Shown piece after piece: positions 4,201 through 25,600 of a stretch of 34,125 nucleotides of DNA. This DNA is from a virus. The position numbers were made by a program, and so were the translations under genes. The notes under the pieces are model-generated. The model saw only the letters and a list, made by a program, of their open reading frames with translations. It ran no database searches and was not told the origin of the DNA. Location: positions 1 to 34,125 of IMG/VR virus record IMGVR_UViG_3300017613_000539; one strand, 5' to 3'. How positions within the stretch are numbered: the first letter of the stretch is position 1; every line of letters begins with the position of its first letter.

Positions 4201-6541
4201 AGATGCCACTACTTATTACACTTGGATTAAATATGCAGATGACGCAGCTGGTGCTGGTATAACTGATAGTCCTACTGGTAAGGCCTATTTAGGTATTGCT
4301 ACTAATAAAACATCACCAACAGAAAGTAATAATCCAGCAGATTATACTTGGCAAAAGTCTTTAGGTGATGATGGTGGACAAGGCATTCCTGGGGATGACG
4401 GAGCTGATGGTACAACTACTTATACTTGGGTTAAGTATGCTACTAATGCTACTGGGACTGCTGGTTTTAGTGATAATCCTACTGGTAGAGATTATATTGG
4501 ATTAGCATTTAATAAGACTACCCCAACTGAAAGCAATACCCCAGGTGATTATACTTGGAGTTTATATGTAGGTGCTGATGGTGTTCCGGGTGCTGATGGA
4601 TCTGATGGTAATGATGGTAATACTGTTGCTCAATTAACTATTTATCGAAGAGCTACCTCTACACCTTCCACTCCCAGTGGTGGTTCATATAATTTTGATA
4701 CAAATGTTTGTACAGCTCCCACAAATTGGTCTTCTACAATTCCTGGTGGAACTAACCCAATTTATGCCTGTATTGGTTTAGCTTCTATTGTAGGTACTTC
4801 AGGTACAGATTCCTCTATTCCATGGGGATCTCCAGAAGTAATTGTTCAGAATGGGGTTGATGGTGATACAGGAGCAGCAGGTAAATCGGTATTTCAAGCT
4901 ACTGTATTTAAGCGAGCTGCTTCAGCTCCGGGAACTCCTACAGGTGGTTCTTACAACTTTACAGCAAACACATTAACACCTCCTTCTACTTGGTTTATAG
5001 CACCTCCAGCAGGTACAGATCCTCTATATCAAGCACAAGGTACATTTGAAATAATAGGTACAACAGGAACAGATAGTACTACTACATGGTCTACTCCTGT
5101 TTTGTTTGTACAAGATGGTACTGATGGTGATGATGGTGATGATGGTACTAATGGTTCTGATGGTCTTGATGGGTCTGATGGTTTAAGTACTTATATGCCT
5201 ATCATATTTAGACGTTCTGTATCGCAACCAGCCACGCCTACAGGTGGTTCGTTTAATTTTGGTACGAATGTATTAAGTGTTCCTACTAATTGGTATGAGG
5301 AGCCTCCTGCAGGTACTGACCCTATGTATGCTTCAAGTGCTTTGGCTTCTATTGTAGGAGATACAGGCATAGATAGCTCATTGACATGGTCTACTCCTAA
5401 AATATTTACAGAACACGGAGATGATGGTATCGATGGAGAGCCTGGTGCTGATGCATTGACTATTCTTAATTATCATCAGAGTCATAACTTCCCTGCTGAT
5501 TCTAATGAAAATGTTACTGATTATTCTAACTCAGGTACAACCATTGAAGTATGGGAAGGAGAAACACAGTTACTTTATGATGGATCAGGTTCTTCAGCTA
5601 GTCGATGGGATGTAGGTGTTATTTCTGATGTAAATATTACTGTTGGCTCAGTTACAGATGGTGGTGCAGTTGCTAATGTAGGAAATCATAGCAATATAAC
5701 AGCGTTAACTGCTTTCATCACTTATCCTATTTATGGTAAAAGAGGAGATGGTACTGATTTCAGTGCTACTGTTACTCAGGTATTTAGTAAAGCTATTCAA
5801 GGACCTGCTGGAACATCACCTATTAATGTTACTTTAGCTGTAGATAATTCAAATATTTCTACTGATTCTGATGGTAATAATGGTGATTATACTCAAGCCA
5901 ATAATCTTATATTGGTTTATGTAGGTGCAGCTCAGATTGGTTATGATGGGGTAGGTACTGCTGATGGTAGTTTTAAAGTAACCCCTACTGGTACTAGTAT
6001 AACCTCTGGAGCTGTAAGTGATGGTGGATTATCAGCAATAGTAGCTGATCCAAGCAACATGACAGCAGATACGGCTAATATCAGCTTTCTCATTGAAGGA
6101 ACAGATCCTGATGGTAATACTTTTTCACTGACTAAAGTACAGCAATTTGTTAAAGTAAAAGCACCTCCTGGTCCACTAACATTTGCACATACTGCAAATA
6201 TTGGTGTTGATTTAGTTGTTACTTCTGAAGGAGGATCAATTACTATTAGATGGTATGCAGCAAGGGCTGCTTCAGGATGGTCTGGTAGTCCAGATCTCCC
6301 AGGTACATCATGTGAAGCTAATTTAAGAAGAAACGGTACAATAATAGAAACTATGCCATTAACTTTATTTACAGAGTCAGAACCAGGCTTTTGGACATGG
6401 AGTTTGAGTATGGCTACAGATACTTACGTAGACACACCAGGATCAGGTACTTGGAATTATGATATAACTATTACAAATTATAGTTCTGGTGATAGTTTAC
6501 ATACAAATAAGAGCTATATTAGTACAAGTGAACCAAGGTAG
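1208..6541 (+). CDS. Giant modular tail fibre / receptor-binding protein with collagen-like linkers (1777 aa)
   Basis: ATG 1208 follows the previous stop immediately. No strong ribosome binding site is visible, so reinitiation is likely. The N-terminal 35 residues are Gly-X-Y repeats (GDTGPVGPRGYPGPRG). A string of beta modules follows, each about 70-110 residues and most separated by short Gly-Asp linkers. There are repeated YxFxRxxxxPxxPxGGxY modules from about 1448 to 3820, Ig-like domains around 2350-2655 and 3830-4180, two tandem copies of a YTWxKYA module, and three tandem copies of a PTGGSYNF module. Two further Ig-like domains span 5450-6180, and a distinct C-terminal beta domain begins at about 6180. 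This is typical of phage host-range fibres. N4 gp65, the tail sheath and receptor-binding protein, occupies an equivalent part of the genome, but homology is not shown here. It probably binds the cell surface. Confidence 0.85.
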   Translation: MGTKGDTGPVGPRGYPGPRGLPQVGSKGDTGNSGIVLTDNLDGTFTISTTNPPQSITFSNGAAGNTPILGVDYFDANSGSFVSYVYCQVLKGATAPTITNDTGSFDGTTEVMPTGPGVTWTDNPVFTEGYTTYVSKNRYIHDATTGGDGSWALKNSAWSTPVIYINPLTDPQVKFTSYAFIRATTVPTTPEGGDYISPTPTTPGWSDGVPVGIEPLYMSKRLFTSDGLTPQETGWHPPELVGQSGSGTKHQFGPSNTGPWDDIPESTDSWMIVCTQQVDGTWVCDTGNPIQIKGETGSQLQGMFKAYAFKRSETVLNERPEGGSFLAPAPVDNIVVGWTENIPIGTADLYVSTRLFTSDGAAPQDSQWSISQLFSGEGGVTYRIDVDSHVFSFDENDANPFPTEINLSVFRQNVAGTVVWTTVPAGVAATLTLSGTDDENAVLDATAFGVNQTVKLTATTGVYSDSVTIVRVKDGLQGPAGAATEIREVRFEYAPDVAGSPGTWHAKPLLGTDVWMREGTFYDGVLQGSWSAGTQIVGDDGTDVWTEFQFSDNDSDWHSTQLADDVYLQSRTVTDGTPGSWSATVHIRGDDGVDGKYFETLFAKSPVGTAPVHDATSPVFPDYDRTVEDPVGWSTDPNITLTGDEVVWAISTTKNHDGTLDVNWPAVAVQWGALTPQKGTDYTDGLAGVHVSKMYKSGATAGTLPAGGSYTAAGGETGVTANGWSDDPMSPQAAGDYIWETLQIYTASLDGNGENVYAVTTAWTTAIKYAYIPSLGTDYFNGDTGNEGDGQFTSFVFRNRPRGIVPSAPTGGSYNGVTETLPTNWTDDPQTPAGDEVTWVSKRLYTSIDGVWQTPPAWGTPSMFSAMTTFTGYLTNEAFLAPAEWDGSAPVLTGSGGGFETWYGDEEATTNTTFTVSGGSVNGSYHDLTTNGLTMRINQTTGIYQLIDNGWTDARDSEVFVLMATHNDTGDIVTLKYVIAKAKQGFQGNPGADGTDGADATTYYTWIKYADDAAGAGITDSPTGKAYLGIATNKTSPTESNNPADYTWQKSLGDDGGQGIPGDDGADGTTTYTWVKYATNATGTAGFSDNPTGRDYIGLAFNKTTPTESNTPGDYTWSLYVGADGVPGADGSDGNDGNTVAQLTIYRRATSTPSTPSGGSYNFDTNVCTAPTNWSSTIPGGTNPIYACIGLASIVGTSGTDSSIPWGSPEVIVQNGVDGDTGAAGKSVFQATVFKRAASAPGTPTGGSYNFTANTLTPPSTWFIAPPAGTDPLYQAQGTFEIIGTTGTDSTTTWSTPVLFVQDGTDGDDGDDGTNGSDGLDGSDGLSTYMPIIFRRSVSQPATPTGGSFNFGTNVLSVPTNWYEEPPAGTDPMYASSALASIVGDTGIDSSLTWSTPKIFTEHGDDGIDGEPGADALTILNYHQSHNFPADSNENVTDYSNSGTTIEVWEGETQLLYDGSGSSASRWDVGVISDVNITVGSVTDGGAVANVGNHSNITALTAFITYPIYGKRGDGTDFSATVTQVFSKAIQGPAGTSPINVTLAVDNSNISTDSDGNNGDYTQANNLILVYVGAAQIGYDGVGTADGSFKVTPTGTSITSGAVSDGGLSAIVADPSNMTADTANISFLIEGTDPDGNTFSLTKVQQFVKVKAPPGPLTFAHTANIGVDLVVTSEGGSITIRWYAARAASGWSGSPDLPGTSCEANLRRNGTIIETMPLTLFTESEPGFWTWSLSMATDTYVDTPGSGTWNYDITITNYSSGDSLHTNKSYISTSEPR
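4211..4618 (+). repeat. Two tandem 204-bp fibre modules (YTWxKYA type)
   Basis: Two copies of 68 codons (4211-4414 and 4415-4618) each run from YTW(I/V)KYA through SPTG or NPTG, then NKTxPTESNxPxDYTW, to a Gly-Asp linker. The second copy starts exactly 204 bases after the first. The copies are clearly related but diverged, so this is an old in-frame duplication inside the fibre gene. Similar YTWIKYA domains occur in other phage fibres. Confidence 0.85.
4619..5449 (+). repeat. Three tandem fibre modules (PxGGSYNF type)
   Basis: Three successive modules start at about 4619, 4883 and 5183. Each has a basic-aromatic strand (YRRA, FKRA or FRRS), then P(S/T)GGS(Y/F)NF, a TxW, PPAGTDPxY or an equivalent, GxxGxDS, and WSTP or WGSP, ending in a Gly-Asp linker of varying length. 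More diverged relatives of the module lie further upstream in the same gene. The pattern points to growth of the fibre by in-frame module duplication. Confidence 0.85.
5114..5182 (+). repeat. GATGGT-rich collagen-like linker tract
   Basis: The stretch encodes 23 residues made almost entirely of Asp-Gly-X triplets, with GAT GGT or GAT GGG codons repeated. It is the longest of the Gly-Asp linkers in the fibre gene. Simple codon repeats like this are prone to slippage, so its length may vary between isolates. The same triplets appear in shorter form at most module boundaries. Confidence 0.8.
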
Positions 6542-6595: not shown

Positions 6596-8734
6596 ATGGA
6601 AACTATTAATCATCCAGAAGAAGAACGTAAAGAATCAGAAGTAGAGACTTCTCGTTTAACTGAATGGGCTAAAGAGCCAACAGTAGCTGAACTTAAACAA
6701 GACTATACTGATGCTAAAAGCGATGTAGATGAGCATATAGCCAAAGTTGATGTTTGGTTGGATAACCTCAATGTAACTGGTGCAGCTAAGCGTAAAAAAA
6801 CAAAAAAGAGATCAGCTATAGTTCCTAAATTAATCCGTAAACAAGCAGAATGGCGTTATGCTTCCTTATCAGAACCTTTTCTTAGTACAGAAGATATATT
6901 TAATGCAGATCCTATTACTTTTGAAGACAAAAAAGCAGCAATACAAAATGGTTTAGTATTAAATAACCAATTTAACACAAAAATCAATAAGATCGCTTTT
7001 ATCGATGAATACGTAAGAACCGCTGTAGACGAAGGAACCGTAATAGTCCGTGTTGGTTGGGACTTTCAAGAAGCAGAAGTAGAAGTTCCCAGTTTTGTAA
7101 TGCAACCTGTACAAGATCCTCAAGTATTTGAACAGCTCCAACAAGAAATAATGAAATCTCAGGAAATGGGTGTACCACTAACTCCTGAAGTAGATGAAGC
7201 AATTCAAATAAGCATGCAAACAGGTGTTCCACATATACCAGTGCAACAAGGTACTCATATGGAACTAAAGACAATCAAAAATTGTCCTACTGTTGAAGTA
7301 TGTGATTATAAAAGTATGAGTATTGACCCATTATGTAAAGGGGATATATCTAAAGCTGGTTTCGTTATATATGACTTTGAAACATCATTAGCTGAATTAC
7401 AAAAAGCAAGTAAATACCATAATTTAGATCAAATCAATTTTGAAGAAAACAATATACTTGCTGCCCCAGATCATGAAGAAGAAAGTGACTTTAATTTTAA
7501 AGATAAGCCCAGGAAGAAATTTGTAGCGCATGAATATTGGGGATATAGAGATATTGATGGAAACGGGATGGTTAAACCCATTGTAGCCACATATGTTGGT
7601 AATACAATGATTCGATTAGAAGAAAACCCCTTCCCTGACCAAGAACATCCTTTTGTAACTGTACAATACCTACCTGTAAGGAAATCTGTATATGGCGAAC
7701 CTGATGGTGAGCTGCTTGAAGATAATCAACAAATTATTGGAGCAGTTACTCGAGGTATGATTGATATCATGGCTCGTAGTGCTAATGGACAAACAGGTAT
7801 TCGTAAAGATGCTTTAGACCTTACTAATAAGCGTAAATACGATAAGGGAGAAGACTATGAGTTCAACGCCCAGGTTGACCCGAGACAAGCTTTTTTCATG
7901 CACACTTTCCCTGAAATACCTCGTTCCGCTGAATTTATGCTTGGAATGCAGAACGCAGAAGCAGAATCTATGTCGGGAGTTAAGGCCTTTACGGGAAATG
8001 AAGGAATCAACGGTAGAGCTCTTGGAGCAACAGCCACAGGGATCAAATCAGCTTTAGATGCTACTTCTAAGCGTGAGTTAGGCATTCTCAGACGATTAGC
8101 TGAAGGCATAAAGAAGATAGGTCGTAAAGTTGTCAGTATGAATGGTGAATTCCTGGATGAAGAAGAAGTAATCCGAATTACTAATGATGAGTTTGTAAAA
8201 GTACGCAGAGATGATTTAGAAGGTAATTTTGATCTTCGACTTACTATCTCAACGGCTGAAGCCGACAACCAAAAAGCAGAAGAACTTGCTTTTATGTTGC
8301 AAACTACTGGTCAAACAATGGGACCGGAGTTCGCACAAATAATTCTTTCAGATATAGCCAAGTTACGTAAAATGCCTGACCTGGCTAAAAGAATAGAACA
8401 ATATCAACCACAACCTGACCCAATTGAACAACAAATGAAAATGCTTGAGATGGAAAAAATCAAAGCAGAAATTGCTAAGTTATACTCTGATGCTAAAGAA
8501 AATGAAGCTGAAGCTGTACTCGATATGGCTAAAGCAGGTACTGAGCAAGCAAGAACAGCTAACTTAACAAGTGATACTGATTTAAAGAATTTAGACTTCG
8601 TGGAACAGGAATCTGGAGTTACTCAAGAAAGAGAACTACAGCAACACGGAGCTCAAGCCGAAGCCAATAAGGATCTAAAAGTTTTAGACCATATGCTAAA
8701 GGCCAATGAAAAACCGCCAGCTGCAAAAGTGTAG
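6596..8734 (+). CDS. Portal protein, N4 gp59-like (712 aa)
   Basis: The portal is the ring at one capsid vertex through which DNA is packaged and leaves. The call rests on length (N4's is about 763 residues), on its place ahead of scaffold and capsid genes, and on sequence features: a basic stretch KRKKTKKRSAIVPKLIRKQAEWR near residues 65-85, VKPIVATYVGNTMIRLEENPF with PFVTVQYLPV in the central region, and NGRALGATATGI with a following long helix in the crown or stem region. The last 120 residues are a Glu-, Lys- and Gln-rich helix resembling a portal barrel. AGGTAGG at 6586-6592 is the ribosome binding site. The gene starts a new block after a 54-base gap that may hold a promoter. No odd truncation is seen. 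Confidence 0.88.
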   Translation: METINHPEEERKESEVETSRLTEWAKEPTVAELKQDYTDAKSDVDEHIAKVDVWLDNLNVTGAAKRKKTKKRSAIVPKLIRKQAEWRYASLSEPFLSTEDIFNADPITFEDKKAAIQNGLVLNNQFNTKINKIAFIDEYVRTAVDEGTVIVRVGWDFQEAEVEVPSFVMQPVQDPQVFEQLQQEIMKSQEMGVPLTPEVDEAIQISMQTGVPHIPVQQGTHMELKTIKNCPTVEVCDYKSMSIDPLCKGDISKAGFVIYDFETSLAELQKASKYHNLDQINFEENNILAAPDHEEESDFNFKDKPRKKFVAHEYWGYRDIDGNGMVKPIVATYVGNTMIRLEENPFPDQEHPFVTVQYLPVRKSVYGEPDGELLEDNQQIIGAVTRGMIDIMARSANGQTGIRKDALDLTNKRKYDKGEDYEFNAQVDPRQAFFMHTFPEIPRSAEFMLGMQNAEAESMSGVKAFTGNEGINGRALGATATGIKSALDATSKRELGILRRLAEGIKKIGRKVVSMNGEFLDEEEVIRITNDEFVKVRRDDLEGNFDLRLTISTAEADNQKAEELAFMLQTTGQTMGPEFAQIILSDIAKLRKMPDLAKRIEQYQPQPDPIEQQMKMLEMEKIKAEIAKLYSDAKENEAEAVLDMAKAGTEQARTANLTSDTDLKNLDFVEQESGVTQERELQQHGAQAEANKDLKVLDHMLKANEKPPAAKV

Positions 8735-9151: not shown

Positions 9152-10279
9152 ATGAGTGAAGAAAACACCAATATCGAGGAAGAAGACGTTCCTGTAAACC
9201 CATTAGAGCTCTCTGATGAAGAAATCATGAATATGCCTCCACCGGAAGACCCGGTGGAAGATCCTGTTGATGAAGACACTGATGAGGAAGATACAGAAGA
9301 AGAAACTACTGAAGAAGACGATGAGGAAGAAGAATCCACAACCGAAGATGAGGTAGATGAAACTAATGTTGAAGACACACAGCAAAAACCGGAACCTGTT
9401 AAAGCAGAGAAAGAAGACCTCTCTGAAGAAACAGACTCTACTGAGAAGTCGGAAGAAGCATCCAGCATAAACTTCGAAGAAGAGTATAATAAGTTGTTAG
9501 CACCTTTTAAAGCATCAGGAAAAGAGATGTCTGTAAACAATACAGATGAAGCTCTTAGACTTATGAAAATGGGTGTTGATTATCATAATAAGATGCATGG
9601 GTTGAAACCTAACCTGAAATTGCTTAAAATGTTAGACAATAACGGTTTACTTGATGAAGGTAAATTAAGTTATTTGATAGATCTGGATAAGAAGAACCCA
9701 GAAGCTATTGCTAAACTTCTAAAGGATTCTGAAATAGATCCATTAGATGTTGATGTAAATACCGAAACTGAATATCAGCCTAATGCTTACACTGTAAGTG
9801 ATAAAGAGGTGGAATTAGATCAAGTACTGGAGAAAATACAAGACTCTGATACTTTTCCTAACACAATCGATGTCATAAGCAATAAGTGGGACGAATCCAG
9901 TAAGAAAGTATTGTTAGAACAGCCAGCTATTATAGAAATTATCAATGATCATATGGCTTCAGGCATATATGACCAAATACAAGGTGTAATAGCTAAGAAA
10001 GAATTGTTAGGTGAACTAACAGGACTATCCAACTTGGAAGCATATAAGCAAGTTGGTGATGAATTGCAAGCAGTAGGTGCTTTCGCTACACAACAGCAAA
10101 CACCGCCTCCTGTCAATGTAGATTCAACACCATCAGCCAATGTAGCCGACCCCAAGCTTAAAGATCGAAAGAGAGCTGCAAGCTCTACGAAGTCAGCACC
10201 GATCAAGAAGGCTAAGCAAAAATTTAATCCGCTTGCCTTATCAGACGAAGAGTTTGAGAAGATTAGTGCTCCACTATAA
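9152..10279 (+). CDS. Capsid scaffolding protein, N4 gp57-like position (375 aa)
   Basis: The gene sits between the small portal-linked protein and the major capsid protein, the usual place for a scaffold. The first 100 residues are extremely acidic, with long Glu, Asp and Thr runs, and are probably disordered. The central part is mixed helical. The C-terminal 50 residues turn basic (SSTKSAPIKKAKQKF), as in scaffolds whose C-terminus contacts the capsid protein. A short motif, NPLxLSDEE, occurs at both ends of the protein (residues 16-24 and near 362-370). ATG 9152 is one base after the previous stop. No protease motif is visible, so whether it is cleaved or leaves intact is unknown. Confidence 0.78.
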   Translation: MSEENTNIEEEDVPVNPLELSDEEIMNMPPPEDPVEDPVDEDTDEEDTEEETTEEDDEEEESTTEDEVDETNVEDTQQKPEPVKAEKEDLSEETDSTEKSEEASSINFEEEYNKLLAPFKASGKEMSVNNTDEALRLMKMGVDYHNKMHGLKPNLKLLKMLDNNGLLDEGKLSYLIDLDKKNPEAIAKLLKDSEIDPLDVDVNTETEYQPNAYTVSDKEVELDQVLEKIQDSDTFPNTIDVISNKWDESSKKVLLEQPAIIEIINDHMASGIYDQIQGVIAKKELLGELTGLSNLEAYKQVGDELQAVGAFATQQQTPPPVNVDSTPSANVADPKLKDRKRAASSTKSAPIKKAKQKFNPLALSDEEFEKISAPL

Positions 10280-10303: not shown

Positions 10304-11806
10304 ATGGCTAATGAACGCATATATAATGACCCGGCTGGGGGTTCTCAATCCAGTGTAGGTGATGTTCAGTTTAATGAATTTTACTGGCAGAAAAAAGCTC
10401 TTATTGAAGCACAAAAAGAGCAATATTTTGGTCAGATGGCTGATACAGTCTCAATGCCGAAGCATTTCGGTAAAACAATCAAAAAGTACCATTACTTACC
10501 TTTGTTAGATGATTCAAACATCAACGACCAGGGTATTGATGCTGCTGGTGCAATCACAGAGTTTAAAGCTACTGTTGCACTTCAACCACCAGAAGGTGTT
10601 CTCGCCACTTCCGGTGCTAATGTAATCTTTATTACTGCTTATGGTACTGGTGCTGCTGCTGCAACTGCTGCTGCAGAAACTCAGGCTAATCTTGAAAGTG
10701 CTGTAATGAAGGCTGGTCTTACTGTAGTTACTTGGGATACTAACTGGGCTACTACAATCGCTGATTATATTACAGCTGGTTGGAAAGTATCTGATAGTCG
10801 TACTACTGATGCTGATTTTGTTGCTACATTCCCAGCTCAGATGGTTCCAGTATATGATGGTGGTAACTTGTATGGTTCGTCTAAAGACGTTGGAACCATC
10901 TCAGGTAAAATGCCAGCATTGACTGAAACTGGTGGTCGTAAGAACCGTGTTGGTTTCAGACGAGTTCAGTTAGAAGGTTCTCTCGAGAAATTTGGTTTCT
11001 TCGATGAGTACACTCAAGAGTCTCTGGACTTTGATACTGATGCAGAGCTATCCATGCATATCAATCGTGAGATGATTCGTGGTGCTAATGAGATCACTGA
11101 AGATGCTCTTCAGATTGACCTTTTGAATGCTGCTGGTGTTATCCGCTTCGGTGGTGATGCTACTGCAACAGCTGAAGTAACTGGAGCCAATGGTTCTACT
11201 GCTTCTGTACCTACTTATACTGACCTGATGAAGTTGAGTATTGACCTGGATAACAACCGTTGCCCTAAGTCTACTAAGCTGATTACTGGTTCTCGTATGG
11301 TAGACACCAAGACTGTTAATGGTGCTCGTTATATGTATATTGGATCAGAATTGATTCCAACAGTACGTAAAATGACTGACATTAGTGGTTCAGGTGTTGG
11401 TAGTGGATTCATCTCTATTGAGAAGTATGCTGCTGCTGGTACGATTGCTCGAGGTGAAATCGGACAGGTAGATCAGTTCAAGATCATTGTTGTACCTGAA
11501 ATGATGCACTGGGCAGGTGATGGTGCTGTTGAAGGTACTAATGATGGATACCGTTCTACTGGTGGTAACTATGACGTATTCCCAATGTTGGTTGTTGGTT
11601 CTGAGTCATTTACTACTATTGGTTTCCAGACCAACGGTAAGAGTGTCAAGTTTAGCATCAAGCATGTTAAGCCTGGTTCTACCCAATCTTATAACTTCCA
11701 AGATCCCTACGGTGAGCTCGGATTTATGAGTATCAAATGGTACTATGGTTTCATGGTACTACGACCAGAGCGTATTGCTTTGATCAAATGTGTAGCTGAG
11801 TGGTAA
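10304..11806 (+). CDS. Major capsid protein, N4 gp56-like (500 aa)
   Basis: AGGAG at 10292-10296 lies seven bases before ATG 10304. The sequence carries hallmarks of N4-type capsid proteins: NLYGSSKDVGTISGKMPALTE near residue 190, then GGRKNRVGFRRVQLEGSLEKFGFF, an ITGSRM stretch, and a C-terminus of DPYGELGFMSIKWYYGFMVL followed by ERIA. The fold should be HK97-like (family knowledge). It is longer than N4 gp56 (about 400 residues). The extra length includes an Ala- and Thr-rich stretch, roughly residues 95-185, just before the conserved NLYGSS. Codon use is rich in GCT and GGT, as expected for a highly expressed protein. A strong terminator follows immediately. Confidence 0.93.
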   Translation: MANERIYNDPAGGSQSSVGDVQFNEFYWQKKALIEAQKEQYFGQMADTVSMPKHFGKTIKKYHYLPLLDDSNINDQGIDAAGAITEFKATVALQPPEGVLATSGANVIFITAYGTGAAAATAAAETQANLESAVMKAGLTVVTWDTNWATTIADYITAGWKVSDSRTTDADFVATFPAQMVPVYDGGNLYGSSKDVGTISGKMPALTETGGRKNRVGFRRVQLEGSLEKFGFFDEYTQESLDFDTDAELSMHINREMIRGANEITEDALQIDLLNAAGVIRFGGDATATAEVTGANGSTASVPTYTDLMKLSIDLDNNRCPKSTKLITGSRMVDTKTVNGARYMYIGSELIPTVRKMTDISGSGVGSGFISIEKYAAAGTIARGEIGQVDQFKIIVVPEMMHWAGDGAVEGTNDGYRSTGGNYDVFPMLVVGSESFTTIGFQTNGKSVKFSIKHVKPGSTQSYNFQDPYGELGFMSIKWYYGFMVLRPERIALIKCVAEW

Positions 11807-12480: not shown

Positions 12481-12831
12481 ATGATTGTCAACGGCTCTAC
12501 TGTATTACTTGATTGGGTATTAACAGCCAATCCCTCTTATGCTTCACATATCGAAGATTTCTTTGATATTCAAATTACTGACCCGGATGGAGTAGCAACT
12601 TATCTTGAAGGTGGTGATACTAATGATAATTGGGCTACTTTATTTACTCAACCGGGTGATGAAGGTGGAGCCGATGGGCAAGTTACCTATAACTATACCT
12701 TTACGAAGACAGGTGTTTACACCATTATTCTTTGTACTGGGGGTGCAGCTAACTTCACAATACTTGATACTGTATTGGCTCTCGTTGTAGATCAAGATAC
12801 AACAATACCAAACACCGTAACACTATCATAA
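12481..12831 (+). CDS. Small Ig-like beta-sandwich protein (116 aa)
   Basis: AGGA at 12470-12473, inside the end of the previous gene, precedes ATG 12481 by seven bases. The sequence shows alternating beta-strand segments: VLLDWVLT, FFDIQITDPDG, then VTYNYTFTKTGVYTIIL and a final hydrophobic strand. Together they look like an Ig-like or PKD-like sandwich. No membrane segment, signal or catalytic residue is seen. It could be a capsid decoration or tail-associated protein; N4 has an Ig-like decoration protein (gp17) elsewhere in its genome. It appears to be an extra gene compared with N4, which has five genes between polymerase and capsid where this phage has six. Function is not established. 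Confidence 0.65.
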   Translation: MIVNGSTVLLDWVLTANPSYASHIEDFFDIQITDPDGVATYLEGGDTNDNWATLFTQPGDEGGADGQVTYNYTFTKTGVYTIILCTGGAANFTILDTVLALVVDQDTTIPNTVTLS

Positions 12832-12840
12832 GGAATTCTG

Positions 12841-14706
12841 ATGGCTGAAATACTTGTAGATGAAATTACCTCCAATGAAGTTGAAGGTACGGGTGTCTTT
12901 GATGAATTAATGTCCACAATCCAAACTCGTTTAGAAAATGAGTTTAAGAAAGGACGAATCAAAGGACCTGATTACGCTAAAGTATATTTGGGAGCCATGG
13001 AATCAACCATAGCTCAATCCATTGGTTTTGTATTAGGAAAGCAGCAAGCTGATAAACAAGCCGAATTAATAGCAGAACAAACCCTTAATGCTACAAAAGA
13101 GGGTGTTTTACTCGATGAACAATTATTAAAACTACAAGCTGATAAAGCTTTAGTTAATCAACAGTTACTCAATGCTCAGGCTGAACAAGCTAAAACTGAA
13201 GCAGAAACACTCATCATACCTAAGCAAGGAGCTCTCCTGGACGCTCAGGAGCTCAATACTGATGCTGAGACTAATTTGGTTAACCAGAAGGTATCAAACC
13301 TCTCTGCAGAGGCTCTGAACATACCTAAAGAAGGTATTGTACTGGATAATCAATCCAGCAAGCTTTTACAAGAAATTGATTTAAGTACTCAGCAGGAAGC
13401 TAATTTAGCAGCAGAAGCCTTGAATATACCTAAACAAGGTACATTAATTGATAACCAGGCTGCTAAAGTCATTGCTGATACTAATTTACTTGCACAGGAA
13501 GAACTGAACATGGTTCAGGAAGTCCTCTTATCACAAGCTAAAGTACGTGATATGGAAGAACAAGTTAAATTGACTATAGCTCAAGCTGCAAAAGCTATCC
13601 AAGATACTAATCTGAGTAAGAAACAAGGACTCAAATTAGATCAAGATATTTTGGTTGCACAGCAAGAAGTACTGAATGCTGTTCAAGAAGTTGCATTCTC
13701 CAAAGCTAAAGTTAAACAAATGGAAGAGCAGGTTCAGCTTACTATTGCTCAAGTACATAAAGCTATCGGAGAAGGTAAACTTACCGAAAAAGAAATTGAG
13801 AAAATGTCTCAAGAGATCCTGGTTGCTGTACAAGAGGTTCTTTATTCTCAAGCTAAAGTATCTCAAATGAATGAAGAAGCATTACTTACAGCAGCTAAGG
13901 TTAAAGCCACAGAGCAACAGGTAATTAATACTACCATTGAAGGCCAGGTGCTTATGGGACAGGCTGACAAGATGGAGCAAGAGGTGTTAGTAGCTCAGCA
14001 GGAAGTACTTAATATGACACAGCAAGTGCTGAAATCTGCTGCTGAAGTATCAATGCTTGGAGTTGAAGAACTAAAAGTAGGTTCTGAAAAGACCTTGTTG
14101 GATAATAAAGCTCTTACTGAAGTGGCTATAGAACTTAAAACAGATCAAGAAACTGCATTACTTACTCAGAAAATACTCAATATGGTTACTGAGGAATTAA
14201 AGCTAGATGGTGAAATTGCCTTGATGGTTAAAGAAGGCCTCAAGGTCGATCAAGACATTGCCTGGAGCCAACAGAAAGTTACTAATTTGGTTTCTGAAGA
14301 ACTTAAGATTGATCAGGAAACTGCTCATATTACACAGAAGACAGCCAATGCAGTTATTGAAGGTACAGTGCTTACAGCTCAAGAGCTGAAAATAGATTCT
14401 GAAACATTGTTATTGGGTCAAAAGACCAAGACTGAAGAAGCTCAAATTAAAGATACTGTAGATGCAGTAGCTGTTGTTGGTGTAGTTGGAGATCAAAGAT
14501 TATTATACCAAGCTCAAACTGCTGGTTTTGCTAGAGATGCTGAACAGAAACTTGCTAAGATTCTTGCAGATACATGGAATATTCGTAAATCTGCAGTACC
14601 TGATACTACTTCTGCTGATTTCACCAACCATCTTGGTGATGTTAATATAGGTCAGGTAATATCTAAAGCAATGGAAGGCATCAATGTTACTCCTTCTCAT
14701 ACATAA
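12841..14706 (+). CDS. Long heptad-repeat coiled-coil virion protein, N4 gp54-like position (621 aa)
   Basis: AGGAA at 12831-12835 lies five bases before ATG 12841. Residues about 60-545 are almost wholly helical, rich in Ala, Gln, Glu, Leu and Lys, with very little Pro or Gly. Short motifs recur: IPK(Q/E)G at 127, 162 and 197 (Pro positions); a VQEV...AKV motif starting at 225, 281, 330 and 393; and LKxD with Asp at 435, 456, 470, 491 and 519. Every spacing is a multiple of seven, as in a canonical coiled coil. A short non-repetitive end follows. The position between capsid and ejection-protein genes suggests an internal core, tail-tube or ejection-channel part. Coiled-coil proteins from this region are known in N4-like phages, but the role here is inference. 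Confidence 0.78.
   Translation: MAEILVDEITSNEVEGTGVFDELMSTIQTRLENEFKKGRIKGPDYAKVYLGAMESTIAQSIGFVLGKQQADKQAELIAEQTLNATKEGVLLDEQLLKLQADKALVNQQLLNAQAEQAKTEAETLIIPKQGALLDAQELNTDAETNLVNQKVSNLSAEALNIPKEGIVLDNQSSKLLQEIDLSTQQEANLAAEALNIPKQGTLIDNQAAKVIADTNLLAQEELNMVQEVLLSQAKVRDMEEQVKLTIAQAAKAIQDTNLSKKQGLKLDQDILVAQQEVLNAVQEVAFSKAKVKQMEEQVQLTIAQVHKAIGEGKLTEKEIEKMSQEILVAVQEVLYSQAKVSQMNEEALLTAAKVKATEQQVINTTIEGQVLMGQADKMEQEVLVAQQEVLNMTQQVLKSAAEVSMLGVEELKVGSEKTLLDNKALTEVAIELKTDQETALLTQKILNMVTEELKLDGEIALMVKEGLKVDQDIAWSQQKVTNLVSEELKIDQETAHITQKTANAVIEGTVLTAQELKIDSETLLLGQKTKTEEAQIKDTVDAVAVVGVVGDQRLLYQAQTAGFARDAEQKLAKILADTWNIRKSAVPDTTSADFTNHLGDVNIGQVISKAMEGINVTPSHT
13213..13461 (+). repeat. 35-residue repeats (IPKxG) in the coiled-coil gene
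   Basis: Three related units have their conserved Pro at residues 127, 162 and 197, an exact 35-residue (105-base) period. Each reads IPK(Q/E)G followed by a hydrophobic pair and LD or ID and an Asn, Ala or Gln stretch. The spacing equals five heptads. The units are diverged at DNA level, so the duplication is not recent. Confidence 0.8.
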
Positions 14707-14708
14707 AT

Positions 14709-17075
14709 ATGAGTTATCGTTTACATGGTGCTGTTTCCTCTTCAAAAATATTAGATGCTGATAATGTACCCAATTCATTATTAGCAGCAGTATTACGAGC
14801 TGTAAAAAATAATGAAGCCCCTTCTGCAAGCATAAGATATCCAATAGCTAATTTGGCTGATTACATAGCCATGAGCTATAAAAGTCGGTTAGAAGAAAAA
14901 ATAGATGATTTTTATGCTTATGGTAGAGATCATCATCCAGATGGCTTACCAAAAACAGTAAGATATTCTGGTGTACCTCCTGTTGAATGGTTTCCCAGTA
15001 ATTATACTAATAATGATCAAATACCTCCTATGGCAGAAGATACTCAAGCTGTAAGAGTTATTATTGAAGAAATAGAAGGAACACCCATCAGGTTTATTGG
15101 GTATGAATACAATAGACCAAATCCAACTGTATTAGCTGTTAAATGGATTAAAGACCACTCTGGGTATGCTATTCAACCTTATACTGATCAATTTTATGAT
15201 CAAGATGAAGGTGGTAATACTCCCATGCCTTTATTAATGTGGAAACATGGAAATGATTGGTGTGCAATGAAAAACTCTACTTATAGTGGCACTACCCTAA
15301 CTATTAAGTATGGAACCTCTAAAGGCGTGTATGGTCGATGGGGTCCTCCTGGACAATTTGAAATTCGAGGTACAGATGAATATGGACAACCAAATGTAGT
15401 TATTGGTTATGAATGGCGATATTACACTATTCCTAATTTTGATACCTTAGAACCATATGTTACATCAACAGAGTTTATACGACAGGCCTTATATTATTTG
15501 GATACAACCAATGCGCTTGGTGTTTTCTTATATAATCCTAATTTAGATAATACTTATCCTACCCTGGAAGAACCATCTTATGACACATTACAAACTTGTT
15601 ACCCGTTTGTGATGTTTTATGATAACTCTAAAAGTGTTGTTGATGGTTTTTTGGGAGATAAGCTTATAGCAGAAAATACTGCTTTATTAAAAAAGATTGG
15701 TATTGATTTTAAGGATTTTGCTGCAGGACTACATGACCCGGATGATCCATCTGCTATTACTAAAGTAACTGATGCCTTTATGGTTTTTGCTGTAGATATT
15801 AATACAGATACTCAAGAAGGTTTAGCTTACCTCTATGAAGCATTCAGACAAATGCATTATGAAGTACAACTAAATACCCAGGCTGATTGGATTGCGAATG
15901 GAGATAGCGGAACAGATACTAATTGGTATTTCTTTGGTAATCATAGAGCAGAGTTTACTATCCGTTACCAATTTAGCATGATAGAGGTTAAGACTGGAGA
16001 TGTTACAGACAGTCAAACAGAGCCTGACATAGATACATTAATTATTGATGGAGCTGAAATAGACCCTACTAATGATGGTTCTACCACAGATGTTAATGGT
16101 GTATTAGTAGGTAAAGTAACTTCTCAAATATATATAGGTACTGAAAGTGATGAATATGTTCATGGACACAATTCTCATAAACTTGTTTTGAGAAAACAAC
16201 TTACAGAAACCACCTTTGTAGAGCTTACTATTTATGGATTGGATCATTGGACTAAAATCAGAGCATATAGCAAGAAGGATGTGTATAAAGGAACTACTTC
16301 CGTTATCTCCACCTTAGCTAGTGGAGACTTAACCAATGGAAAGCTTTTTCTTCCTTTAGTCTACGAAAAAGTAGCCGTTCTTCATGATTCAGTGATGCCA
16401 GCTTTGGTTTATGATTCCTTACTATTCGTAGCCCATGCTGTAGAAATCCAATATATCAAATGGTATGAGCATACTGGATTCTGGAACATGATCCGAGTTG
16501 TATTATTCGTAGCTACCTTTGGTAGTAGTGAAACATGGATAGAGCTGCTTTATGAATTGGTTCTCAATTATATTATTAATATTGCTATTTCTGCTTTATT
16601 CCAAGTACTTGTAGAAGCTATTGGTGGTGAAGCAGCACTAATATTAGCTGCAATAGCAGCCGTATACTCTTTCTATATGGGTGATGATGGTGATTTATTA
16701 TTTGAATTAATAGATGCAGAGACATTAATGCAAGCAGCTACCTATATGATTGGTGCTGTTAATGCAGTTACAGCAGATAACTTCAAACAGTTACAACGAA
16801 ATATAGAAGAACACACAGAGTTACAAGAGAGTAGACAGGAAGAATTAGAAGCTATGGAGGATTTATTAGGCCCTCCAGGAACTACTCTTGAAGTATATGA
16901 ACTTATATCCAATGAATTTAAAATAGATACTTATGAAACACCAGAACAGTTCTTTAATAGGAGTTGTCACATTACTAACCCTGGTGTATTATCGTTAGAT
17001 ACTATAGATAGTTATATTGGAAATAACTTAACCTTGCCCAAAATGGAGAATAATCCATTACACAGAGCAGCTTAA
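14709..17075 (+). CDS. Large internal virion protein with hydrophobic C-terminal segments, N4 gp53-like position (788 aa)
   Basis: ATG 14709 follows the preceding TAA by two bases. No good ribosome binding site is visible, so translation is probably coupled. Residues 1-580 are soluble and aromatic-rich, with YRLHGAVSSSKILDADNVP at the start and many acidic residues. Residues 591-605 and 611-658 are strongly hydrophobic (VVLFVATFG; LNYIINIAISALFQVLV; AALILAAIAAVYSFYMG), suggesting two or three membrane-interacting helices. A Glu- and Gln-rich coiled coil follows at about 695-725. The protein ends PLHRAA, echoing the last residues of the giant polymerase. It lies in the ejection-protein block, so a role in crossing the cell envelope during infection is plausible but inferred. 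The C-terminal hydrophobic segment is unlikely to be an ordinary secretion signal. Confidence 0.72.
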   Translation: MSYRLHGAVSSSKILDADNVPNSLLAAVLRAVKNNEAPSASIRYPIANLADYIAMSYKSRLEEKIDDFYAYGRDHHPDGLPKTVRYSGVPPVEWFPSNYTNNDQIPPMAEDTQAVRVIIEEIEGTPIRFIGYEYNRPNPTVLAVKWIKDHSGYAIQPYTDQFYDQDEGGNTPMPLLMWKHGNDWCAMKNSTYSGTTLTIKYGTSKGVYGRWGPPGQFEIRGTDEYGQPNVVIGYEWRYYTIPNFDTLEPYVTSTEFIRQALYYLDTTNALGVFLYNPNLDNTYPTLEEPSYDTLQTCYPFVMFYDNSKSVVDGFLGDKLIAENTALLKKIGIDFKDFAAGLHDPDDPSAITKVTDAFMVFAVDINTDTQEGLAYLYEAFRQMHYEVQLNTQADWIANGDSGTDTNWYFFGNHRAEFTIRYQFSMIEVKTGDVTDSQTEPDIDTLIIDGAEIDPTNDGSTTDVNGVLVGKVTSQIYIGTESDEYVHGHNSHKLVLRKQLTETTFVELTIYGLDHWTKIRAYSKKDVYKGTTSVISTLASGDLTNGKLFLPLVYEKVAVLHDSVMPALVYDSLLFVAHAVEIQYIKWYEHTGFWNMIRVVLFVATFGSSETWIELLYELVLNYIINIAISALFQVLVEAIGGEAALILAAIAAVYSFYMGDDGDLLFELIDAETLMQAATYMIGAVNAVTADNFKQLQRNIEEHTELQESRQEELEAMEDLLGPPGTTLEVYELISNEFKIDTYETPEQFFNRSCHITNPGVLSLDTIDSYIGNNLTLPKMENNPLHRAA

Positions 17076-19620: not shown

Positions 19621-22600
19621 ATGGCAGATCGCAACCCTATCTTTACTGATCCATTAGAAGGAACCGGATTAGGTTCCTTTTCTTCTAATACCCTTTTAGG
19701 TCCAGAAGCTAAACAACAACAGATTGAAGAAGCCTCTCATCGTAAGCGTCAAGCTTTGGAGATGAAGCAATTCAAAGAAAACCTGCAAGGTGGTTATTAC
19801 AGCAATCAAAGCCGTGATAGAACTGCCGCTGAATTAGCTCAAGATTTCAAAGTAGCCTTACACGGTGGCGGTAACTTATTAGCTACTGGTTTATATGGTG
19901 CTGCTAATCTTGCTGGTGCTCCTATCACAGCCCTACAAGAAGCCATGACAGGTGAACATGTACCTAGTGTTGATGAAGCTCTTACACAAATGAGTGGTGG
20001 TGAGTTAGGTTTCCAGGCTCTTGCTGATAACAGATCAAATTATATAGAAGAACATGGTTCAGATGTCCTTAAGGCTGCTTTACAACAAGAAGCTCAAGCT
20101 GATGCTCAATGGGATGCACAAGAAGAAGCTCGTATGGCAGAGCGTGAAGCTGCTGGTAAAGGTTGGTTAAGAAGCAATATAGAGGAAATAGCAGGTGATG
20201 TAGCCCATACAGCTACCCAAGCCTATGAAAACCCTGTAGCAACCACACATGCAGCCCTAGAGTCCATTCCTACTATGATTGGTGCAGGTCTTGTAGGTAA
20301 AATGAGCCAAGGAGTGTTACAAGCAAATCTTGCTAAAAAGGCCAGTAAAGCTGCTGCAGATCGTTTTCTTAAGACTGAAGCAGGAAAAGCTGCTATCAGA
20401 AAGACAGGTGAGAAAGGTGCTATTGGATTTAATGCAGCTCTTGAAGGTCTTACAGCCGGAGCTGATGCCCGTCTTGATATATTAAATACTCCAGTAGAAG
20501 AATTACGTGAAGGTTCTCCTTACTTCCAGGAATTGGAAGCAGAACATGGTACAGAAGTAGCCCGCCAAAAATTGGCTGATAAAGGTATGTACATTGCTAC
20601 TGCTATTGCAGCAACCACTGGTGGTGTAGCTACTAAAATTTCCGGGGCAGGAAAACTTGAAGGTAACTTCTTTAATAAAGATAGTGCTTTTGGAAATATG
20701 TTCCTGACTCGAATACTCAAAGGAACTGCAGTAGGTATTAAAGATGAAGCTCAAGAAGAAGCTATGCAAGGAGCAGGTGGTCAATTTGCTGCTAATGTTG
20801 CAGCCAAATATACTAAAGACCCAGACCAGGCATTAGGTGAAGGTGTTACCCGAGCTACAACTAAGGGAGCTATTATTGGTGGTCTTGCTGGTGGTGGTAT
20901 GGCTGCTGTTACTGAAGTACCCAAACAAGCTGCTAAATCTGTTGTAGATAACAAAGGTATTGTTCAGAAGACCAAGGACAAAATTGCTAACTATAAAGAT
21001 AGTAAAGTTGCCAATGAGAAAGTAAAGGCAGCAGTTAAAGCTAAAGATTTCCGTGAGATTACTGATGATAGTCGTGATGACTTCAATAGAGAAGATGCTA
21101 TCCAGGCTCTTTTAGATCCTAAAGGCTTACCTGAAGAAGGTGAGGCTCAAGAAGAACACCTCAATGAACTCGAATATCATATTGAAAAAGCTCATCATGA
21201 TGCAGTTGTAGCTGTAGATAAGCTTGAAGAAAAAGAGGATGCTTCCCCTGAAGCTCTCAAAGAAGCTAAGAAGAATCTTGCACTAGCTACAAAGAAGCGT
21301 ACTCGCCAGTACAGAGCCTTTCAGGAACTACAAGGTCTTAACGAGAAAGAACGTGTAGATGAGCGTCTACAAGCTGCTGAGAGCCTAATAACAGCAGAAA
21401 AGGATGGTAACGAGGAATTAGCACAGAAAAGCCTTAAAGTCCTTAATAGAAGCTTCTATAACAGCCCTGATGGTCTGACTGAGAAAGAAGCTACAGCCTT
21501 ATATAAAAGTAAGTCAGCTAGTCCAGGAATGAAAGCTCTAGCTAAGCAACGATTGGATATTCTCAAAAATATCGATGAAGTAAGTAACGATATCCGTAAG
21601 GGTAAAGGTAACTTCATTGGTGTTGATGTGATGCGTAAACGTGCTATGGCTGCTGTTGTACAAGGACATCAAGCCAAAGCCATAGGCAGAGTAAAAGATA
21701 TTGTTGATTTTGGTGGTCAGCAGGTTGATCGTCATAATACGATGAAAGAAGGTTATGCAGCTTGGAAGAAGCTTCGTGGTCTTAAGAGCAAAAACACCAA
21801 AACAGCCAAAGCTTTAAAGAAAACGGTTGATGCTTCAATTGAAACCCTGTCTGAGAATAGTGGTAGAAAATTCTATTTCAGTAATGGTACACAAAAAATT
21901 ATTGACCAGGCAGTTAATGATATTGCATATATTGATAAGGTAGCTAAAGAAGCAGCAGCTGCTCATGACCATGGCTTCTCTGATAAATATGACGGGCCAA
22001 CAAGCATATCTAGCTCTGTGCGTGGGCAGCAAGCCCAAAGCACAGATGTTACTGACAATCCAGAAATAAGAGAATTACAGTCAAAAACCTCTAAAGCAAT
22101 TATTCAACATGGTGAAGATAAACAAGCAATTAGAGTAGAAGAAATGGGTAAAAAAGGTATAAAAAACCCATCTGATGTCAGTGTGTATTCAAAGAAAGAT
22201 GCAGCTAAAGCTAGTATGGCTACACAATTCATAGGGGAAGGTGGTGAAGGAACCTCTACTAAAGCTTATCAAGAAATTTATGATGATAAAGCTAATACTG
22301 GAACATATGAAAAAGGAGATGCTGTATTTATCTCAGTCAATGGAGGAAATAGCAAGACTAAAGTAAATGCTCTTAAAGATGGTAAATTAGCAGGTGTATA
22401 TGAAAACATAGATAAAGCTATGGCTGCTGGTGCTACATTAATTACAGATACTGAAAAACACCGTAATAGGTCTTATAACCAGCCAGGTGAAGGAGCTATT
22501 GCTAAATATATACAGAATAGTCCTCATAAATATCATTATAAAGAAGTTACCAAAAATGGAGAAAAAGTTGGTACATGGATTCCTGTTACCTCATATACAA

Positions 22601-25600
22601 AAGCACAGTCTAAAGGTAAAACCAAAGCATGGGGTTTTCATGCTAAACGTCCTAATGAATTACCAGAAGGAACTGAAGGTTACGAAGTATCTAGTAAAGC
22701 TAGTATGGCTAAAGATAATTTACCTATTACTGAAGGTGATCATCGCTTCAGTGCTTTCAAAGCTAAATTAGCTAATGGTAAAACTATTGAAGAAACATAC
22801 CAAACTACCATCAAAGGCTTCAAAACCTTAAAAGAAGGTAAGGGTAAAAAACCAACCATTGCTTATTCTGAGCAAGACAGTAAAGACTTATATAAAGCTT
22901 TGTGGAGACAGTACCTTAATGAAAACCCCACATTACTTGATGAGCTAAGAGCCAATGCTCAAGGTAAAATACTTACTGATGCTTATTGGAAGAAAGGTGC
23001 TGTTGTAAACCAAGCCCAAACTCTTTCAGAACTTCTCAATGAAAAGCCTAAAGATACTGAGAAAGCCAATAAAAGATTACCATATGATTTAACACATATA
23101 GAAAATTACTCCTCTGTACTTGAGAAAGCTAAGGCAGATGAAAATATATCTGGTAAAGCTATTCAATCATTGGAGACACTTCCAAATAGTACTGCTGCTC
23201 GCTTCTTTGTACAAAAATATGAAAGTCTGGAAGGTGACTCACAAGGTATAGCAACACAAGACGAACACCTTATTAAAGCACTTAAAGATCATAAGAAAAG
23301 CGTAAAAGATTATAGTGATAAAACACCACCTACTACTAATGACCGTAAATTAGATTATTTGGTTCAAATCGCTGAGAAGTATATTCCTGAAGACCCTACT
23401 CTAACTAATATTAAGAAGAGGATGGAAGCCAGAGATACTTTTACTTATGAAGATGTAACTGCTCTCTCTGCAAGTTTATTAACTAAACTTTCTAAAACTA
23501 TTACTCAACAACGCAGAATAGATGCTAAAGGCAAAGATAAAATAATAAAAGATCCTAACTTTATTTTAGCTAAAGAAGTTCTTACTAAACGTCTAAGTTC
23601 TGCTGCTAAAACAGTACATCCAGTACAACAAAAAGATCCAGAAGGTAATTTATACTCACCAGAACCTTATGAAGTAACTGCTATTGATAACGTAATATCT
23701 ACATTATTTGATGCTATAGACTTAGATCCAAAAACGACTAATTTACTGCAAAGACATAATAATTTCTTTGAAGCATTAGAAGCAAACCCTGCTTTATTGG
23801 ATTCTGCTGAGTTAACAGAAGCTGATCAAATAGCTATACCTGTTATTACTGAATTTCAGGCAAAATTTTTAGAAGAACTAACCCAAAGTTTAAAGCCAGA
23901 AAATCCTCAATTCATGGAGAATAGTCCTTTCCTTTATTTCTTTGGAGATTATTCTGCAGCTACAAAAGAGAAGCTTAAAGCACAATATAATTTAATCAAT
24001 AAAATTAGACCAAAAATAGAAGAAACTACTCGTCCTGATTTGGCTAAAAGAATTGATTTAACTAAAAGATTAAATTACTTGAAGAAAAATGATCCTAAAA
24101 ACGAGGAAGAAATTGCTTCAGTAGAGAAAACCAGAGCTAAATTAAATAAGAGGATTACTGAAGCACGACAACCAATGACAGATGCAAGAGCTATTATTGA
24201 TGACATTATTGGGGAACAAAACCCAAACCTAGATGCCAATCTTATGAGTAGTATTGCAATGGTTGCTCTTAATTTTATTGGTACTGGTGGTAGAAAAACA
24301 ATTAAGAACACAGAAGTAGGTATTAACATGCTACTCCAGCATAAAGACTCAAAAAGAAGAGTCGAAGGTGCAGAGTGGCAGATGTTTGGGGAAATTGGTA
24401 TTACACGCTCCGGTGCTGTTACTGCTATGGGTGCTGAAGTTCTCAAAATGTTAGGAATCAAATTTAATAAAGATGCAGACGGTCGTTTTGAAACTCTAAT
24501 AGAAAATCATATTGGTGGCTTAATAGTAGGTACATTACAAAATATGGATATATTAAGAGCCCAAACTGTTACTGCAAAACAAATGCAGCCTTTCCTTGAG
24601 CACCTTGGAGAAACCAATGAGAACCAGGGATCTACAGAATTCATTCGTATTTATACTGAAGATGTTTACCGTGAGACAAAAGAAGGTAAGTTTGAGGAGT
24701 TTCCTGAGCCTAGAAGAGATATTGCAGAAATCATAGAAGCAATACGTAATTCCGATGATGTATTAAGTAAGTTATTTAAATTAAAATCAAAGATAATTAA
24801 GCCTAAGAAGGAACGCCCTAAAACAACTGAACTTGTCGATGGTAAGCTTAAGAACCGTAAGATTAAGCGAGGTACAGATAATAAAGAATCTCAAGAGCAA
24901 CAGAAGATCCGTGAAAAACATAGCCAGCAGGAGCTAGGATTCAAGCAGACCATGGAAATATATGAATGGTTTGATCCAGAACAAGCATGGGAGCTTGCTG
25001 GTTTAGTTACTGACTATGAAACTACTGAACACATTACTGAACATGCTGGTTTTAAGGGACGTAACGATGCTCTCAAACGTAGCCATGAAAATACTATGGA
25101 ATGGTTCAGAGAGATAGGTCCTAATTCTACTTTCTATGCAACGCATAAAACAGCCAAGAATAACCGTGTACATCAAGAAGCTAATCTTATTGATACTCAA
25201 GGTGATACTACTCAAAAACATTTGGTAGGTATTAAAAGCCATCTTGTTACCGTAGATCCTAAAAACAAAGCACACATGAACCAGTTCTTATCAGCAGTAG
25301 CTGAATCACTTGGTTTAAGTGGGGATAAGGAATTAACTCATGTCCTCAAAGATCAATTAGAAGAATTATTTAATCCGGCTGAAGATGCCACAGAAGAAGC
25401 CAAAGAAAATGCGGCTAAACTTAATGCAGGTATCGAAGCTATACTTGCTTTTGATAAAGATAAGTTTGCTAACAAAGAAGCCAATCAGAGAGCCATACTG
25501 GACGCTGCTGCTGTTGGTGGAGAGAATGCCTGGTCTTTAGATGGTTTACGTGCCTACGCTAACTACAAGAAGGCTGATGGCGGTAAATTTAAGACTGACC

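Follow-up and report, generated by a model that had tools for sequence, protein, structure and literature searches.

Heptad-stepped rod lengths in the tail tube protein of N4-like phages

Tail tubes of N4-like phages and their homologue in the window

Siphophage tails contain many stacked tube rings, and their length is set by these rings and a separate ruler, the tape measure protein; phage tail length is usually ascribed to such a separate tape measure. The closest described relatives of the protein analyzed here are the tail tubes of N4-like phages. In DEV, gp75 forms a dodecameric tube of about 330 Å in length with an outer diameter of 63 Å and an inner diameter of 36 Å. Residues 2-157 of DEV gp75 are resolved near the adaptor and residues 158-321 distally, and its N-terminal helix-turn-helix touches the adaptor (PMC10925440). 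About 200 helical residues at 1.5 Å each, compared with 330 Å, suggest that the DEV tube fits a single pass and not a hairpin. The distal end of the N4 tube is closed by gp53 (DEV gp74) as a plug (PMC12633501; PMC12892993). The tubes of B2 gp34 and Moo19 gp71 have been resolved in C12-symmetrised maps (PMC11654681).

The window, the whole stretch of 34,125 nucleotides that was analyzed (IMG/VR record IMGVR_UViG_3300017613_000539), encodes a long member of this family together with several other N4-like virion genes:

500-1207, + strand: head-to-tail adaptor, to which the tube binds (PDB 9d83_B, B2 adaptor, E 2.6e-31; 9bgm_b, DEV gp83, 2e-15)
6596-8734, + strand: portal protein (PHROG 1216, E 1.4e-247; Pfam SU10_portal, 5e-141)
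10304-11806, + strand: major capsid protein, N4 family (PDB 9bgn_C, DEV gp77, E 1e-145)
12841-14706, + strand: tail tube protein, 621 aa, long variant (N4 gp54 / DEV gp75 homologue; PHROG 2050 and PDB sequence matches)
12841-13038, + strand: conserved N-terminal module of the tube, residues 1-66 (cross-homologue HMM; aligned to DEV gp75 6-119)
14389-14703, + strand: conserved C-terminal module of the tube, residues 517-621 (HMM C module; aligned to DEV gp75 222-320)
14709-17075, + strand: plug-like protein (N4 gp53 / DEV gp74-like), 788 aa, next gene after the tube (PHROG 2220, E 1.4e-51)
19621-32394, + strand: giant virion RNA polymerase (vRNAP) homologue, 4257 aa (PDB 11gp, N4 vRNAP, E 4.6e-22, residues 3781-4199)

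The 621-residue protein matched PHROG 2050 (E 2.2e-51) and the tail tubes of DEV (gp75, PDB 9bgm, E 1e-30), B2 (gp34, PDB 9d83, E 3e-28), N4 (gp54, PDB 9lc0, E 2e-19) and Moo19 (PDB 9d80, E 4e-18). All matches were to PHROG 2050 (virion structural) or to tail tube structures, and no homology to tape measure or head-core proteins was seen. Its N module aligns to the DEV, B2, N4 and Moo19 tubes, with matches that continue into the rod. At the other end the matches span about residues 514-616, and residues 514-615 align to DEV gp75 222-320 with a domain i-E of 1e-17; the C module carries the motif QxxLYxxQxxGFxRDAEQKxAK. By homology, the N module would be the adaptor-facing end and the C module the distal, plug-facing end. 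We assign the protein as a tail tube because both of its ends are homologous to solved tubes and because its gene precedes a plug-like gene as in N4. Judged by sequence, it belongs to the known tail tube family of the Schitoviridae (N4-like phages), as an extreme-length variant.

The order capsid, gp55, tube, plug and vRNAP is that of N4. The tube gene sits between gp55-like and gp53-type plug genes, and one extra small gene (12481-12831) precedes it. This small gene, in the interval between the gp55-like gene and the tube, encodes a 116-aa protein that lacks a PHROG or Pfam match and was found at only 8 other loci with at most 44% identity. The plug-like protein had no match in the PDB sequence search, and its assignment therefore rests on PHROG 2220 and synteny; it shares 34% identity with the protein encoded after the tube gene in the nearest complete relative, L028.

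For comparison we define rod length as the distance between a conserved N-module residue and the C-module TExA|Q motif, which gives 471 residues for the window protein. DEV gp75 (PDB 9bgm; PMC10925440) shares with it both modules, the gene position and the 2 mod 7 class of rod length. However, DEV gp75 has 321 residues compared to 621 here, and its rod is shorter by 294 residues (42 heptads), being taken as 177 residues from the LUZ7 and PS28 homologues, which are equal in protein length to DEV gp75. N4 gp54 (PDB 9lc0, 9yf4; PMC12633501) likewise has the two end modules and is encoded in synteny with the plug gene gp53, but differs in its 299 residues, its rod of 108 (3 mod 7, one residue above the main class) and a 47-residue N-terminal extension. 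B2 gp34 and Moo19 gp71 (PDB 9d83, 9d80; PMC11654681) also share both end modules, while at 206 and 279 aa they have much shorter rods.

Heptad register and predicted course of the rod

Between its end modules the protein is dominated by a heptad pattern with the following features:

13039-14442, + strand: heptad rod, residues 67-534, about 67 heptads in a single unbroken register (autocorrelation, Viterbi; mostly helix in AF2)
13216-13440, + strand: three IPKxG repeats at an exact spacing of 35 residues, in the rod register (motif positions; DNA copies 66-71% identical)
13513-13879, + strand: three VQEV...AKV repeats, spacings 56 and 49 (motif positions)

The first-pass annotation had placed three repeat families at multiples of seven residues, and the motif positions bear this out. 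IPKxG starts at residues 126, 161 and 196, giving the claimed spacings of 35 and 35, and Pro 127, 162 and 197 occupy an identical heptad position. LKxD starts at residues 264, 432, 453, 467, 488 and 516; the spacings of 21, 14, 21 and 28 were correct, and the copy at 264, which had been missed, also lies at a multiple of seven (168). VQEV starts at residues 225, 281 and 330, so that 56 and 49 are exact, while the third claimed spacing, 63, depends on TQQV at 393, a degenerate version of the motif. Chance as the source of the heptad spacing is excluded by the autocorrelation and by the lags of short repeats over residues 70-530. The top 25 of 200 autocorrelation lags are all multiples of seven; the mean z is 6.6 for the 0 mod 7 class and does not exceed 0.14 in any other. 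Among short repeats, 48 of the 52 exact 4-mers and 161 of the 179 near-exact 5-mers recur at a lag of 0 mod 7. Of the 66 residues at position 3 mod 7, 65 are E, Q, K or D, compared to 38% overall (binomial 1e-26).

A Viterbi fit that penalised register shifts, with the window protein left out of the profile, finds one register across residues 67-534 without stutter or skip. The strong constraint on the register that had been proposed over about 400 residues hence holds over more than 460, and is stronger than claimed. The proposed coiled coil stands with respect to its register, but the pattern is unlike a classical one-stripe rope. Harmonic 2 or 3 dominates in all 53 heptad homologues, while the GCN4 control gives harmonic 1, and the single hydrophobic a/d stripe per helix of a classical two- or three-stranded rope is dominant in 0/53. 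This stripe test is weak evidence, because a de novo helical-barrel control also gave one stripe (harmonic 1).

The AlphaFold (AF2) monomer consists of long helices modelled with low confidence (mean pLDDT 61.6, pTM 0.26). The confidence is weakest at the IPK repeats, where the model breaks, and is low at residues 121-202 and 409-462; within the C module a turn at 539-546 is followed by a helix at 548-585. The continuous helix of about 70 nm suggested earlier remains the best reading of the sequence, although the confidence of the model is low.

We consider it likely, with a probability of roughly 0.75, that the protein is an N4-like tail tube subunit whose single-pass rod sets the tail length by its heptad count. 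The observations behind this reading are the homology, the gene order, the unbroken register and the mod-7 rule described below. The dodecamer, the tube dimensions and the contacts to adaptor and plug are carried over from the DEV and N4 papers, and by this analogy twelve copies would assemble into a hollow tube with a single layer of helices. The N module would dock beneath the head-to-tail adaptor, the rod would run down the whole tail once, a single pass that we infer for this long member, and the C module would form the distal tip, closed by the plug. Each helix would probably touch two neighbours along the whole tube. If each subunit spans the full tail, tail length equals rod length, and neither a tape measure nor stacked rings would be needed. 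Like siphophage tails, the proposed tube would be a long non-contractile DNA conduit; unlike in those tails, each subunit would span the whole tube.

Assuming one pass and calibrated on DEV only, tube length is predicted as 330 Å + 1.48 Å x (rod - 177). This gives about 9 nm for Vibrio phage JA-1, 23 nm for N4, 61 nm for Alteromonas phage A5 (rod 366), 76 nm for the window protein and 118 nm for the homologue L031; no solved tube is as long as the one predicted here. The published tail of nACB1 (rod 385) measures 7 ± 1 nm (PMC10057805), compared to a prediction of more than 60 nm, and thus contradicts the formula, while the 60 ± 5 nm reported for R22Y (rod 253) agrees with a long tail. Further reported tails are 37.8 nm for PS28 (rod 177), 20 nm for VL1, whose 321-aa tube is homologous to the DEV tube that measures 33 nm by cryo-EM, 24 nm for CB1 (near relative Possum, rod 107) and 22 nm for JWAlpha (near relative Axy24, rod 108). 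Tail lengths from negative-stain TEM are noisy and too inconsistent to decide how rod and tail are related.

The short nACB1 tail in spite of a 385-residue rod would fit a tail tube whose additional rod residues, in long members, turn back into a second layer or build bundles on the outside, with tail length no longer proportional to rod length. The low AF2 confidence at residues 121-202 and 409-462 and the Pro-Gly motifs every 35 residues, which could be bends, are compatible with such a fold. However, a turn is expected to break the register, and the register is unbroken over the whole rod here, including the middle, the expected place for a hairpin turn, as well as throughout the 748-residue rod of L031 (both by Viterbi). 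The long R22Y tail at a rod of only 253 residues also speaks against folding back, and we regard it as rather unlikely.

Rod lengths across homologues

Homologues were gathered from viral contigs and annotated phages. They share conserved end modules and differ in the rod between the anchors, which is shortest in Vibrio JA-1 (16 residues) and longest in L158 (780). In a first set of 57 non-redundant homologues, 28 rods were 2 mod 7, on a ladder of 16, 23, 30, 65, 72, 86, 93, 100, 107, 135, 149, 177 and so on up to 751 residues. A soil clade (L081, L085-L088, L090, L091) was inspected and then excluded from the later tests owing to a C anchor that fails to align; without it the first count is 28 of 51. 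L003 and L005 were left out of the length tests; their tube genes consist of two ORFs in different frames, probably through assembly errors or frameshifts. The rule was replicated in 44 new non-redundant homologues that had not been used to find it, where 33 rods were 2 mod 7 (p 2e-19 before correction for relatedness) and six were 3 mod 7. Among the pooled 95 homologues, 61 belong to the main class and 17 more to the next one, and class 4 is empty. In nature the rod thus occurs in over 50 different lengths, quantised by the heptad.

Since simple p-values ignore relatedness, a tree of the end modules was used. It contains 73 length changes with 25 changes of the mod-7 class, where the null expects 54 ± 3. 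Disjoint sister pairs with differing lengths differ by a multiple of seven in 21 of 39 cases (p 8e-9), and 34 of the 39 differences lie within one residue of such a multiple; for the first set alone this strict test was weak (7/23, p 0.037). Two control segments, the C-terminal tail and the loop that follows the rod, gave no mod-7 effect in the tree-aware test. Shared ancestry as the cause is rejected by the tree-aware parsimony, the sister pairs and these controls. An artefact of the HMM alignment is likewise rejected, as motif anchors alone, without the HMM, place 53 of 78 homologues in one class. A hendecad or other repeat was considered and rejected: moduli 4-6 and 8-13 had no effect on homologue rod lengths in the tree-aware test, and autocorrelation of the window rod gave no signal at period 11. 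The significance of modulus 14 follows from its being twice seven. Even and odd heptad counts are equally frequent (31 vs 30), which identifies the step as seven residues and rejects double-heptad steps.

As the first-pass annotation expected, homologues hence differ in length by multiples of seven, except that some clades carry +1 skips and two lack heptads. The main class leaves out 11 of the 44 new homologues and, among the 51 of the first set that can be aligned, 23; 17 of these 34 lie one residue above it. Many off-class homologues carry a single +1 skip; L028, with a rod of 591, differs from the window protein by 120 residues (17x7+1) and has one skip. In the roseophages and the marine clade L010/L014/L021 the heptad pattern was looked for and none was seen. 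The Acinetobacter phages nACB1 (L093) and Presley (L094) have rods of 385 and 412 residues with 9-10 prolines and about five successive register shifts, mostly +1, in contrast to a single unbroken register, a solution that differs from that of the strict heptad rods.

Under the single-pass reading, gain or loss of whole heptads would change the tube by about 1 nm while keeping the helix-helix contacts and the orientation of tip to top. Other insertions or deletions would break the seams or rotate the tip against the top, and would mostly be lost. We infer this as the reason for the heptad lock. The multiples of seven might instead be a mutational by-product of unequal recombination between heptad repeats, without selection for register. 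The rods do hold internal repeats, and in-register exchange between them is possible. However, the DNA copies of the repeats in the window are only 66-71% identical, so that recent slippage is not visible, and the rule persists over deep divergence. Moreover, off-register changes are uneven, both in the sister pairs and in the empty class 4, as a structural constraint predicts, and we therefore consider a by-product unlikely.

The protein family was already known and the length rule is the new part. It appears unreported: a targeted search of open-licence PMC papers found no report of a heptad-quantised tube length, and earlier reports elsewhere are possible.

Tail length as a probable sequence property and further genes of the window

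Taken across the family, we somewhat favour the view that the tube subunit acts as a digital ruler. It would span the tail, and tail length would evolve heptad by heptad, in steps of about 1 nm, from about 9 to more than 115 nm, with twelve parallel chains and no tape measure. Some nominal podoviruses, including that of the window at about 76 nm, would then have tails of siphovirus length. A rule that places length in the subunit itself is testable, and would make tail length quantitatively predictable from sequence for a large and common phage family. For nanotube design the homologues also offer a natural library of helical tubes with rods of 16-780 residues, and they illustrate clearly how a coiled-coil register can constrain the evolution of length.

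The first-pass annotation had instead suggested a coiled-coil rod or internal core protein spanning or folded within the head, in view of a single-helix length close to the head diameter. The position of the gene near the ejection-protein cassette also speaks for this reading, but it is very improbable and was rejected, because both ends are homologous to the dodecameric N4, DEV, B2 and Moo19 tail tubes outside the head, the N4 inner proteins gp50-gp52 (PMC12633501) are encoded further downstream, and the one-stripe rope pattern (weak evidence, as noted) dominates in none of the 53 heptad homologues.

The capsid protein (10304-11806) has 500 aa, compared to about 400 in N4-family structures, and matches these in two stretches, the main one from residue 186, which suggests an insertion of about 100 residues. 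The vRNAP homologue has 4257 aa compared to 3500 in N4, and its phmmer match to the solved N4 vRNAP covers only residues 3781-4199. A 1777-aa tail protein at 1208-6541 contains collagen-like GxY stretches and several long internal repeats, and matches tail protein PHROGs. The gene at 9152-10279 belongs to PHROG 2120, like N4 gp57 in its record, and is labelled as a tail length tape measure protein. It directly precedes the capsid protein gene, where a scaffold is expected, and the tape-measure label looks doubtful.
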